Source: Gluconacetobacter dulcium
Lineage (GTDB): Bacteria; Pseudomonadota; Alphaproteobacteria; Acetobacterales; Acetobacteraceae
DNA: 64,000 nt
Direction of reading: 5' to 3'
Assembly (NCBI RefSeq): GCF_014174165.1
Contig: NZ_JABEQN010000001.1
Coordinates: 1-64,000 of the forward strand
Part shown: positions 10,534-40,303 of the stretch, one piece after another
Layout: the number at the start of each line of letters is the position of its first letter
How positions within the stretch are numbered: the first letter of the stretch is position 1
The notes under the pieces: model-generated
The model's database searches: none
The model's input: only the letters and a program-made list of their open reading frames with translations
Told to the model about the DNA's origin: nothing
Position numbers and translations under genes: made by a program

Positions 10534-10695
10534 GAGGCTGGCCGGAAATGTGGGCTGGTGAGCGAGAGCGGCCCGAAGGGTCGCGTCCGTCGTGTGTTTC
10601 CGAGCACCGAAGCGGAGCGGCCTTATGGGCCGTGAGCATCGGAGCACAGGAAACGCGCGCCGGATCGCCACCAGCGCGCATTTACGGCCAGCCTC
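10534..10695. repeat. Dispersed structured repeat, full-length copy A
   Basis: A 162-bp unit between yebC and the secA stop. Its arms (10534-10560 and 10669-10695) are inverted complements at about 23 of 27 positions, enclosing a 108-bp core rich in small internal hairpins (for example GGCC-TTAT-GGGCC). The core aligns without gaps, at roughly three quarters identity by eye, with the reverse complement of the core at 26353-26460. The right arm starts immediately after the secA stop codon, so the unit may also act as the secA terminator. Confidence 0.75.
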
Positions 10696-13428
<2,733 letters not shown>

Positions 13429-16673: not shown

Positions 16674-17513
16674 ATGTCGAACGCCGTCTTCACGCCCGAT
16701 GCCGTCGCCACGACGCTGGAGCGCGTCCGGGCCGGCACGCCACTGGTCCATAACATCACCAACATCGTGGCCGCGAACACCACGGCCAACGCCCTGCTGG
16801 CGCTCGGCGCCTCGCCCGCCATGGTCGATGCCGAGGAAGAAGTCGAAGCCTTCGCCGCCCAGGCGGCCGCCCTGGTGGTCAATATCGGTACCATCACCGC
16901 CCCCCAGGCCGCCGCCATCGCCCGCGCCATACAGGCGGCCCAACGTGCCGGCACGCCATGGATTCTCGATCCGGTAGCGGTCGGGGCACTCGCCTTCCGC
17001 GCCCGGATCGCGCTGGACAGCCTGGCCCACGCCCCACGGGCGATTCGCGGCAACGCCTCGGAAATCATCGCACTCGCCCACCTGCGCGACGGCCATGCCG
17101 AACCGCCACCCCAAGGGCGCGGTGTGGATTCGCTAAAAACCGCCGAACAGGCCGTGGACGCAGCCGCCCGGCTGGCACGGTCAACCGGCGCCTGCGTCGT
17201 CGTCAGCGGCGCGACCGACCACATCACCGACGGCACGCGGATCGCCACGGTCGCGAACGGCCACCCGATGATGACGCGCGTCACCGCCCTGGGCTGCACC
17301 GCCACCGCACTGGCCGGCGCCTGCCTGGCCGTGGAGCCCGATGCGATGGCCGCCTGCGCGCATGCCATGGTTCTGATCGGCCTGGCGGGCGAGCGCGCGG
17401 CCCGCGAAGCCGCCGGCCCCGGCAGCCTGCAAGTGCGCCTGCTGGACGCACTGTATCAACTGGACCGCAACACGGTGACGCAAGAGGCGCGGATCGCTAT
17501 CCTGACTCCATGA
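16674..17513 (+). CDS. thiM: Hydroxyethylthiazole kinase ThiM
   Basis: Phosphorylates 4-methyl-5-(2-hydroxyethyl)thiazole in thiamine salvage. Ribokinase-like signatures: PLVHNITNIVAANTTANALLALGASPAM at the N-terminus, WILDPVAVGA, and the catalytic-site GCTATALAGACLAVEP. 279 aa. No other thiamine gene is adjacent and no TPP riboswitch is visible in the short gap upstream. Confidence 0.95.
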   Translation: MSNAVFTPDAVATTLERVRAGTPLVHNITNIVAANTTANALLALGASPAMVDAEEEVEAFAAQAAALVVNIGTITAPQAAAIARAIQAAQRAGTPWILDPVAVGALAFRARIALDSLAHAPRAIRGNASEIIALAHLRDGHAEPPPQGRGVDSLKTAEQAVDAAARLARSTGACVVVSGATDHITDGTRIATVANGHPMMTRVTALGCTATALAGACLAVEPDAMAACAHAMVLIGLAGERAAREAAGPGSLQVRLLDALYQLDRNTVTQEARIAILTP

Positions 17514-17514
17514 G

Positions 17515-17565
17515 AGCCTGACTGGAGATGCGCGTCGGACCACCAGCGCGCATTTCCAATCAGGC
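17515..17565. repeat. Dispersed structured repeat, minimal form
   Basis: A hairpin directly after thiM. Arms 17517-17534 and 17547-17564 match at 16 of 18 positions. On the minus strand it contains AAATGCGCGCTGGTGG, the same 16 bases as the inner arm of the full copy at 10534-10695, followed by a TCCG-CGCGC element also found in both full cores. It looks like a core-deleted relative and may serve as the thiM terminator. Confidence 0.6.
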
Positions 17566-17621
17566 CCTGCGTAACCACCCGGTCCCAACCCGGTCATCCC
17601 TCCAGGAGGTCATACACAGGC

Positions 17622-25350: not shown

Positions 25351-26325
25351 ATGGCAAATCGAGAAACGATCGTTGGCGCCTTTGTCGTCGGGGGCGTGGC
25401 CCTGGGCATGGGGGCGCTGGTCTTCTTCGGCAATTTCAATCTCTTCTCGCCCACCAAGGAGGCGACCGTGGTCTTCCAGGGCTCGACGTCGGGCCTGAGC
25501 ATCGGCGCCCCGGTCACGTTCCGCGGGGTCCGGGTCGGCGCGGTCGATGCCATCTCGATCACCTATGACGCCCGCACCCACGCCGCCTATATCCCGGTAT
25601 CGGTCCAGCTCCAGCCCAACAGCATCTCCATCGCCGGCGCCTCGGGCACGCACCGCAGCATCAGCCTGCAGAACATGATCGACCACGGGCTGCGCGCCTC
25701 GCTGAACATGCAGAGCTTCGTCACCGGCCAGGCCGAAATCGATCTCGATTTCGACCCTTCCGCTCCCGCCGTGCTGCACCCCGATATCGTCACCGGCAAG
25801 GATATCGAAATTCCCACCCGCCAGTCCGCGATCCAGAAGGTGCAGGAAACCCTGACCCAACTGCCTCTGAAGGAACTGGCCGACAACGCCCAGGCCGCCT
25901 TGGCCAGCATCAAGCAGTTGAGCGAACGGCTGGATCAGGACCTGCCGCCGCTGGTCGACAGCATCAAGCAGACCTCCGACCATTCGCGTATCGCCGTCGA
26001 CAGCGCGACCCACGCCATCCAGGACCTGGAGCAGCGGCTGGACACGACGCTGACGGCCATCGACCGACTGGCCACCACCGGCACCCAGCAGCTCGACGCC
26101 CGAGGCGCCGACCTGCACCAGTTGCTGCACAGCGCCAACGATACGGTGATCCAGGCGCGCGACAGCCTGTCCGCCCTGCATGACATGACATCGCCCCGCT
26201 CGGCCGACCGCGCGAACATCGACTCCACCCTGCGCGACCTGTCCGCCGCCGCCGCTGCCCTGCGTGGCTTCGCCAGCGACGTCGAGCGTAATCCGCAACT
26301 CCTCCTAATGGGACGCCGCCCATGA
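25351..26325 (+). CDS. mlaD: MCE-domain lipid-transport protein (MlaD/PqiB family)
   Basis: Membrane-anchored periplasmic protein that forms the hydrophobic channel for substrate. One N-terminal helix (IVGAFVVGGVALGMGALVFFG) precedes the single MCE domain (VVFQGSTSGLSIGAPVTFRG...VGAVDAISI), then a long helical C-terminal half with repeated TH/DL motifs that may form a coiled coil. 324 aa. The stop TGA at 26323-26325 overlaps an ATG of the following gene, and the repeat element begins at its last base. Confidence 0.92.
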   Translation: MANRETIVGAFVVGGVALGMGALVFFGNFNLFSPTKEATVVFQGSTSGLSIGAPVTFRGVRVGAVDAISITYDARTHAAYIPVSVQLQPNSISIAGASGTHRSISLQNMIDHGLRASLNMQSFVTGQAEIDLDFDPSAPAVLHPDIVTGKDIEIPTRQSAIQKVQETLTQLPLKELADNAQAALASIKQLSERLDQDLPPLVDSIKQTSDHSRIAVDSATHAIQDLEQRLDTTLTAIDRLATTGTQQLDARGADLHQLLHSANDTVIQARDSLSALHDMTSPRSADRANIDSTLRDLSAAAAALRGFASDVERNPQLLLMGRRP

Positions 26326-27074
26326 AAAACCGCTCTGCCAGCCGGGCTGCCGGCGATCCGACGCGCGTCCACTGCGCTTCGCTGCTCACGGCCATCAAGG
26401 CCGCTCCGCTGCGATGCTCGCGGACACACGCCGGGCGTGCCGCTGCGCGGCACTCTCGCTCGGCAGCCCGGCTGGCAGAGCGGTTTTTGTCACCTCGCGC
26501 TTCAGCACGCCTGCTCGCCCTGCTGCTACCGGCCATGGTCGCCGCGTGCGCTTCGCCGCCGGTGCGGTTCTACACGCTGGGCGCGCCGGCCATCGCCACG
26601 GGCGCGGTGCCGGTCGGCAGCGTCACCCCGACGACGCCGGTCGTCACGGTCGCCCGCGTCACCCTGCCCGATTATCTCGATGGCCAGGACCTGATCGCCC
26701 GCGACGGCAACCGGATCGAACGCAGCGCCACCGGCCGCTGGGCCAGCCGCCTGTCGCTCGGCGCCACCGACCTGATTACCGCGCGACTGGCCGAAAGCCG
26801 CACCGACCTGTTCGTGACCGACCAGCCGCAGGTCCTGCCCGCGACCTGGCGCCTCGCGGTGAATATCAGCCGCCTCGACATCGCGCATGACGGCACGGCA
26901 TCGCTCGTGGCCGACTGGTCGATCGTCCCGCATGATGAACGCCAGCCCCTGCTGCACCAGCGCGCCAGCCTGACCCGCCAAGGCCCCGCCGCGACCGACG
27001 ATCAGGTCGCGACCCTGACCCAGGCGATCCTGAACGATCTGGCGGAGCGCATCGCCGCAAGCTGGCCACGCTGA
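26322..27074 (+). CDS. ABC-type transport auxiliary lipoprotein (PqiC/DUF330-like), N-terminus altered by a repeat
   Basis: Likely outer-membrane lipoprotein of the Mla/Pqi system. Recognisable from ACASPPVRFYTLGAPA onward, with VVTVARVTLPDYLDGQDLI, RWASRLSLGATDLITARL and NISRLDIAHDG. The lipobox is MVAAC. From ATG 26322 (ATGA overlap with mlaD) the protein is 250 aa, but its first 55 residues are encoded by the inserted repeat, giving an implausibly long, basic, arginine-rich region before the hydrophobic segment. TTG 26487, at the inner end of the repeat's right arm, would give a normal signal (SPRASARLLALLLPAMVAAC) and a protein of about 195 aa. I consider TTG the more functional start. 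Confidence 0.8.
   Translation: MKNRSASRAAGDPTRVHCASLLTAIKAAPLRCSRTHAGRAAARHSRSAARLAERFLSPRASARLLALLLPAMVAACASPPVRFYTLGAPAIATGAVPVGSVTPTTPVVTVARVTLPDYLDGQDLIARDGNRIERSATGRWASRLSLGATDLITARLAESRTDLFVTDQPQVLPATWRLAVNISRLDIAHDGTASLVADWSIVPHDERQPLLHQRASLTRQGPAATDDQVATLTQAILNDLAERIAASWPR
26325..26488. repeat. Dispersed structured repeat, full-length copy B
   Basis: A 164-bp unit with perfect 28-bp inverted arms (26325-26352 and 26461-26488) around a 108-bp core (26353-26460). The core is an ungapped homologue of copy A at 10561-10668 in opposite orientation, but the outer arm sequence is different. It sits between the mlaD stop and the signal-peptide region of the lipoprotein gene and is read through in frame from ATG 26322. 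Confidence 0.82.
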
Positions 27075-39889: not shown

Positions 39890-39963
39890 TGGAGCGGGTG
39901 AAGGGAATCGAACCCTCGTATGCAGCTTGGGAAGCTGCCGTTCTACCATTGAACTACACCCGC
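39890..39963 (-). tRNA. tRNA-Gly, anticodon CCC
   Basis: Read on the minus strand: acceptor stem GCGGGTG / CACCCGC, D-arm with TAGTTCAATGGTAGAAC, anticodon arm GCAGC-TTCCCAA-GCTGC giving anticodon CCC, and T-arm GAGGG-TTCGATT-CCCTT. The discriminator is T and the terminal CCA is encoded (39890-39892). 74 nt including CCA. It decodes GGG. Confidence 0.95.
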
Positions 39964-40107
39964 GTCGCGTCCAGCCCTATACCTCACCGCACGTCCCGAC
40001 GCAATCCGCTGAGTTGCTCCACAACTGCCGCCGCCCCACTATGGTTGACGAGCGCCCCCCCGATCCGCAATAACCCTGTCGTCCGATAGCCCCCATGGGA
40101 CCAACGG

Positions 40108-40165
40108 ACCCTCGGGATTTGGATCGGCCGGCTTGCGACGAGGTTAAACAGACGCGCTAAAGAGG
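40108..40165 (+). ncRNA. SAM-II riboswitch
   Basis: The sequence matches the compact SAM-II pseudoknot of alphaproteobacterial methionine genes. P1 pairs CCTCG (40110-40114) with CGAGG (40139-40143). Between and after them are the conserved elements GATTTGG, GGCTTGC, TTAAAC and GCTAAAGAGG in the right order. It lies upstream of metZ, the expected target. About 140 nt separate it from the metZ ATG; the rest of 39964-40303 holds a small hairpin (CCGCGT-CAGG-ACGCGG at 40215-40230) and no gene. Confidence 0.9.
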
Positions 40166-40303
40166 CCTGACACCGCCAGACTCCGCGGGCGTCACGGTTT
40201 CCACGGTCGGATTGCCGCGTCAGGACGCGGGGCCATGGAACCGGTTCGTCACCCAGACGCTCCCAGCCTCGGCCTCCTGACGGTTTTGTTCCGGGAACTG
40301 ACG

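Follow-up and report, generated by a model that had tools for sequence, protein, structure and literature searches.

The palindromic elements of Rickettsia contain a palindrome that is translated in frame within a protein. In RNA, compensatory change is commonly thought to pass through a G-U pair, and covariation is widely regarded as the strongest proof that an RNA structure is functional. Closest to the element described here are the insertion sequences of the IS1031/ISGdi1 kind with IS-derived MITEs, YPAL/RU-2 of Yersinia, and the REP sequences and REPINs with RAYT. YPAL/RU-2 is presented, in the available text of its description, as an element of approximately 168 bp with a long hairpin, target duplications of 3 to 26 bp, internal inverted repeats, and a possible effect on upstream transcripts (PMC2229807). 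REPs and REPINs are numerous dispersed palindromes that also form tandem arrays, and some of them lie near stop codons, according to the accessible part of a report (PMC12306157). Furthermore, the accessible sections of a study on the template-switch evolution of hairpins in RNA genes indicate that paired changes need not pass through G-U, and 78.5% of the two-step compensations identified there affected G-U pairs (PMC8794818).

The window, i.e., the whole stretch of 64,000 nucleotides analysed here, contains two copies of an element of approximately 164 bp without genes, in which a stem encloses a core with the hairpin P3 and the long hairpin P2, the whole forming a three-way junction (Table 1). 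An earlier note on this DNA had described two oppositely oriented copies whose cores measure exactly 108 bp and share roughly three-quarters identity, with arms that pair within each copy (GCTGGTG with CACCAGC at one core edge, GCTGCCG with CGGCAGC at the other), and small hairpins nested in the core; all of this was found so at the same positions, the identity being 77% over 127 aligned bases and the nested hairpins being P3 and P2. Copy 1 is listed on the minus strand after the adjacent gene, although its plus strand folds better, with a folding z of −10.1 as DNA (plus strand) and, as RNA, of −12.0 (plus strand) and −7.8 (minus strand); in view of these values, its folding is not due to chance. 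The gene that ends at the arm of copy 1 is presumed from its sequence to encode SecA. The outermost stem base of copy 2 is the last A of the ATGA shared by two genes. The third element of the window is a relic that starts with the TGA stop of a 279-codon ORF (16674-17513); both arms are kept and most of the core is gone, and it again adjoins a stop codon. An Rfam 15 family was considered and rejected, as the window elements gave no match above the gathering cut-off, and a search of four loci at E up to 5 yielded only one unrelated match at chance level. Elsewhere in the window, Rfam identified an ordinary SAM-alpha riboswitch and tRNA (40101-40181 and 39893-39963).

Table 1. Positions of the elements and adjoining gene features in the 64,000-nt window.
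Feature	Position	Strand	Basis or detail
Copy 1, whole element	10534-10695	− (strand of adjacent gene)	Sequence comparison and folding
Copy 1, arms	10534-10560 and 10669-10695		Flank the core at 10561-10668
Copy 1, hairpin P3	10568-10584	+	Fold; columns 36-52 of the 49-copy alignment
Copy 1, long hairpin P2, tip most conserved	10587-10663	+	Fold; alignment columns 55-131
TGA stop of the gene upstream of copy 1	10696-10698	−	Directly at the copy 1 arm
Core-deleted relic, third element	~17511-17568	+	TGA, then GAGCCTGACTGGAGATG ... CATTTCCAATCAGGCCC
ATGA, stop of the MlaD-domain gene (25351-26325)	26322-26325	+	Overlaps the start codon of the next gene
Copy 2, whole element	26325-26488	+	Arms 26325-26352 and 26461-26488; core 26353-26460
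ABC_trans_aux lipoprotein gene	26322-27074	+	Frame open from the old start codon across copy 2

In its own genome, copy 1 has at least 57 BLAST matches (40 of 132 candidates scored) and copy 2 at least 54 (40 of 130), array units included in both counts. When the first 80 loci fetched were scanned with an HMM, 59 distinct stretches were extracted, partial copies and array units included; the repeat is a dispersed family, as had been supposed from the two copies alone. Matches occur in all 14 Gluconacetobacter genomes searched, in 58 of 299 genomes of a family-level draw (best two candidates per genome scored), and in 8 of 385 genomes of a class-level draw, namely the own genome and seven with short partial matches, and copy 1 has no match in the plasmid and phage collections searched. 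Several variant forms were observed. Some loci are tandem arrays, one of which (G000:C6:39604-40301; L012, L074) consists of a complete gene-proximal unit and further units with a different right half, and the gene ahead of it is presumably ftsZ, as recognised from its sequence. Three short stretches of approximately 60-70 bp (L199, L207, L221) have the same ends with little or no core and are probably internally deleted copies. Two further copies have lost 32 bases of the core, which measures 88 vs. 120 between anchors: that of G010 at the secA locus (L137), from which the P2 tip is missing, and that of G011 at L004 (L171). A REP/RAYT system was rejected: Y1_Tnp was found in none of the 14 genus genomes and in five of 14 control genomes, and the RAYT-like gene that the earlier note had envisaged beside the family did not appear. 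No published report of the family was found in a search that lacked most subscription journals, and its absence from print is thus not established; the available text of one further paper contains nothing on palindromes (PMC11234323).

Arm pairing was assessed in 87 unique copies, obtained from 122 extracted copies through 115 anchored and 90 kept. The 25 anchored copies that were dropped have at most 11 of 19 arm pairs and none had 12-14 of 19; because these weakly paired rows were left out, the pairing percentages describe copies pre-selected at 15 or more of 19, and the same stem edge is visible in all 115 anchored copies before this selection. Unpaired rows with flank number 21 and were read as 12 array units, seven copies from other genera whose register is shifted, and two truncated or indel copies. 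With position 1 at the core edge, 18 of the 22 arm positions are 93-99% Watson-Crick in the 87 pre-selected copies, the exceptions being positions 2, 4, and 10, which are often mismatched, and position 22 (78%); beyond the stem, pairing drops to 20-41% at positions 23-26. All four Watson-Crick pairs are seen at several arm positions. Because aligning the 87 copies globally with MAFFT gave a poor result, other alignments took its place, among them a gap-free alignment of 49 copies, all of 164 nt, from which L108, L111, L122, and L183 of the same length were left out. In these 49 copies, 36 of the 66 pairs are changed on both sides, compared with a mean of 19.2 in shuffles that do not keep the relatedness of the copies (0 of 500 as high), and such pairs occur in all five helices; the earlier observation that the arms covary between copies thus extends to the family. 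Furthermore, 96.1% of cells pair in this alignment, falling to 34-37% when the partner is slid by one column, and nine of the 10 strongest covarying column pairs fall in the structure. Covariation of the kind demanded of a structural RNA is therefore present, though copying at the DNA level would give an equal result.

The end GAGNCYG is kept in 29 of the 87 copies, 17 of which have identical TNA triplets on both sides (TGA in 13, TCA in four, the latter being TGA in the other orientation), compared with a mean of 10.0 and a maximum of 15 in 2000 shuffles. Among the 58 copies with other ends, only six have identical flanking triplets, and most copies accordingly show no duplication today. The earlier description of the arms as not conserved in sequence and unlike ordinary transposon terminal repeats therefore applies to the diverged copies and fails for the GAGNCYG copies, which are MITE-like. 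The pattern TNAGAGNCTGNNNGAAAA occurs 61 times in the genome with at most one mismatch vs. twice for its reversed control, many of the 61 matches being the ends of element copies themselves. Three IS copies fetched from plasmids were compared: ISGdi1 (IS5-like, from the same genus) has the ends GAGCCCGATCCGAAAGTT with TAA on both sides, an IS5 copy of Kozakia is likewise bordered by TAA at either end, and the third, of the IS1031A family (L338), showed no recognisable pair of ends. The canonical element end, GAGCCTGA-CCGAAA, differs from ISGdi1 GAGCCCGATCCGAAA by one mismatch and one gap in 15 columns; terminal repeats resembling the IS are confined to the canonical-end copies and are lacking in the diverged ones. 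The own genome contains a broken relative with such an end, matching the ISGdi1 copy at 83.0% and the IS1031A-family copy at 82.5%; only IS1031-like remnants with related ends, and no intact IS with the exact ends of the element, were found there, and the surroundings of 11 DUF4096 loci contained no pair of ends that was convincing. A short element of approximately 85 bp with such ends was observed beside a broken IS1031-like end (L231:1228-1372, GAGTCTGATCCGAAAG). Judged by its sequence, the element is most likely a MITE of the IS1031/IS5 group, and the sharp edge and fixed stem length across the 87 copies support such an origin. Among the identities suggested in the earlier note, the non-autonomous mobile element is thus favoured by IS-like ends, TNA triplets, and the absence of genes. 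A transposase of the IS1031/ISGdi1 kind would most likely have moved the elements in trans, because the canonical ends and TNA triplets match those of this group.

The position of the element relative to genes is precise. Enough flank on both sides was available for 58 of the 87 copies, and a stop codon of an ORF of at least 90 codons lies at arm positions 20-24 on one side in 44 of them and on the other side in one, compared with 0-2 and 0-3 in control windows of 5 nt. The 44 stops are TGA (38), TAA (4), and TAG (2). In 32 cases the stop falls exactly at position 22, and its last base is usually the outermost stem base. The single reverse-orientation case at a long ORF, L014, is one of the four TCA copies; 13 copies have no such stop on either side, several of them having one a few bases off. 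Copies from other genera conform in nine of 12 cases, with the stop at positions 19-23 and TAG among the stops. Empty and filled sites were compared at six of 14 loci searched, including the presumed secA locus, where the element lies behind the gene in six of 12 genomes and is absent in six. As TNA includes TGA and TAA, insertion in a stop codon can leave the gene intact; the TNA target does not explain why stop codons are so strongly preferred or why one orientation prevails, and both features may reflect either target preference or selection after insertion.

A long stable hairpin directly behind stop codons is also what a transcription terminator module would look like, and 18 of the 87 copies have TTTT close to where the stem ends on its 3′ side (positions 15-30), copy 2 being of that kind. 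The other 69 copies lack it, and copy 2 is situated between the MlaD and lipoprotein genes of an operon-like MlaE-ATPase-MlaD row, inside the lipoprotein frame. An intrinsic terminator was rejected on these grounds; the transcription-stop role raised in the earlier note is unlikely, and a terminator module as the explanation of the family is improbable. Integron attC sites likewise lie behind stop codons, keep their structure while their sequence varies, and fold better on the template strand. If the element were a folded single-strand recombination site of this type, the template strand of the adjacent gene would fold and recombine; the R boxes of such sites (consensus RYYYAAC / GTTRRRY) are absent from either end of all 87 copies in the patterns tested, and the flanking TNA triplets indicate insertion by a transposase. 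This candidate was rejected and is the least probable of the explanations considered.

The locus of copy 2 provides a view of one insertion in several species. Thirteen of 15 strong matches were compared, those of G005 and G012 being left out. The site is empty at five loci (G004, G003, G011, G006, and a second locus of G013), where the MlaD-domain gene ends with ATGA (once ATGATGA-like) overlapping or abutting the lipoprotein start; at the empty sites read, the end point of the gene is unchanged and no arm sequence is present, so that an element that copies its flank, as considered in the earlier note, was not seen. In eight genomes, the own included, the element lies directly behind the MlaD-domain gene and the core between anchors is 120 nt; reading from the shared ATG across the element, no stop codon is met before the conserved FYTLG motif, and filled and empty loci differ in length by multiples of three. 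Since the frame is open in 8/8 filled loci, the precursor probably begins with residues encoded by the element; in the window, approximately 50 residues at the start of the predicted lipoprotein precursor would be read from copy 2, other starts being possible.

Between any two of seven orthologous copy-2 elements, the arms show 0-8 double Watson-Crick changes and 0-4 single ones. The copy of G013 at this locus (L322), which was left out of this pairwise table, is paired at 13 of 22 positions and looks recombinant. At other loci, orthologous copies differ by up to 10 double changes, and single changes are seen at close range (two single and no double changes between G010 and G002 at L008). The arms have thus drifted as pairs within one orthologous insertion, and the other loci support this. 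Chimeric copies, with arms seemingly from different alleles, were observed as L322 (G013), L148 (G009 at L015), and L166 (G002 at L004), and seem to be a sign of recombination within the core. The same comparison bears on the explanation that the element was inserted in the loops of old host hairpins, the copy-specific arms then being host sequence, with which the presence of other GC-rich hairpin-like sequences behind the stop codon at some empty sites, as read by eye, would agree. The stem, however, ends at one position in all copy classes, the arms of one shared insertion differ between species by up to eight double changes, and the empty copy 2 sites lack the arms, which contradicts the explanation there. 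With the stem edge fixed and the arms changed in place, insertion into host hairpins was rejected and is very improbable.

Paired drift may arise by selection on an RNA stem or by copying of DNA. On the strand of copy 1 as given, and with cells counting sequences and not events, the double-change cells of the arms comprise 104 transitions and 87 transversions (191 in total; columns 1-18 minus column 13), and the mismatches in those columns are 12 G-U, 11 A-C, and 11 other; in the core helices, there are 61 transition and 43 transversion cells, with 24 G-U, 10 A-C, and 17 other mismatches. The double changes that the earlier note had taken as a signature of selection on a stem are therefore unaccompanied in the arms by an excess of G-U over A-C. 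In the mRNA strand of the 87 copies, the arms contain 19 G-U vs. 30 A-C, wobble thus not being favoured, and this strand is the better folder in only two copies. In the opposite strand, the whole structure contains 367 G-U vs. 65 A-C, 277 of the 367 being at four conserved pairs; without these four T.G pairs of the core, the counts are 90 and 64. The better folding of the opposite strand is largely due to the four pairs, and their conservation argues against unrestrained copying from arm to arm and for some constraint on the core.

Selection is best represented by a domesticated hairpin, i.e., a structure at the 3′ end of the mRNA whose arms drift by two-step compensatory mutation; it might shield the transcript from exonucleases or influence ribosomes that reach the stop codon. 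The stop-codon position with one orientation in 44 of 58 copies, the covariation of all five helices, and the constraint on the core implied by the conserved T.G pairs are in its favour. REPs at most 15 nt from a stop codon are reported, in the available text, to affect translation (PMC12306157), and by analogy the element may influence mRNA ends or the ribosomes that reach the stop codon. The G-U and A-C counts in the mRNA-strand arms, the better folding of the opposite strand, and the transversions among the arm double changes (87/191) speak against a domesticated hairpin, as does the stem of copy 2, which probably lies within translated sequence. Template-switch copying accounts for the arm data no less well than selection on an RNA stem does; for the arms, such copying is ranked ahead, selection on the fold is a serious rival, and both may act. 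As an account of the whole family, the domesticated hairpin is rather unlikely.

The preferred explanation, with a probability of approximately 0.6, is an IS1031/ISGdi1-type MITE family whose arms drift as pairs by arm-to-arm copying of DNA. The elements would land mostly in TGA or TAA stop codons, where a 3-bp duplication, as the junctions suggest, would restore the stop codon of the gene, and most copies share one orientation relative to the gene. The distal duplication would then decay and the arms would drift yet stay complementary, most likely via template switching at the near-palindrome with one arm copied from the other, and some constraint on the core fold would act alongside. Against this explanation stand the failure to find an intact IS with the exact ends, the difference between the element end and ISGdi1, the stop-codon preference and orientation that the TNA target leaves unexplained, the small share of copies with a duplication today, the four conserved T.G pairs, which arm-to-arm copying alone should have removed, and the persistence of chimeric copies with mismatched arms. 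A further proposal, put forward tentatively, is that the family serves as a natural record of template-switch mutation, combined with oriented insertion aimed at stop codons by an undescribed mechanism. If this is true, single DNA events write matching changes into both arms, across many loci and species, and textbook "RNA covariation" arises without RNA function. In this family, a mobile DNA element covaries strongly in all helices, and the usual companions of RNA selection, wobble intermediates and best folding of the transcribed strand, are missing or reversed. The family may thus show covariation apart from RNA function. Its dozens of copies per genome, its presence in the whole genus, and its orthologous insertions make selection and DNA copying directly testable against each other. 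Furthermore, the exact, oriented use of stop codons and the probable supply of a protein start by the element bear on how small mobile elements become tolerated and reused.

Compared with the known systems, the element is most likely a MITE, with covarying arms and oriented stop-codon placement. It shares with IS1031/ISGdi1 and IS-derived MITEs the ends GAGCC(C/T)GA..CCGAAA and identical TNA triplets on both sides; unlike these, it has no transposase but a conserved folded core, its ends have drifted in most copies with the arms still paired, and it strongly prefers stop codons and one orientation. The in-frame reading at copy 2 recalls the Rickettsia palindromic elements, although it occurs here at one locus and most copies lie behind stop codons. 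YPAL/RU-2 is similar in length, hairpin, target duplication, and possible effect on transcripts, as far as the available text of its description extends (PMC2229807), whereas the element here has terminal repeats and the TNA triplet. REPs and REPINs are comparable in their dispersal, arrays, and proximity to stop codons, again within the accessible part of the report (PMC12306157), and the element differs in being much longer and in occurring without a Y1_Tnp match in the 14 genus genomes searched. Finally, the available sections on template-switch evolution of hairpins concern RNA genes (PMC8794818), whereas the paired changes described here belong to a dispersed DNA element, which in one instance lies inside a coding frame.
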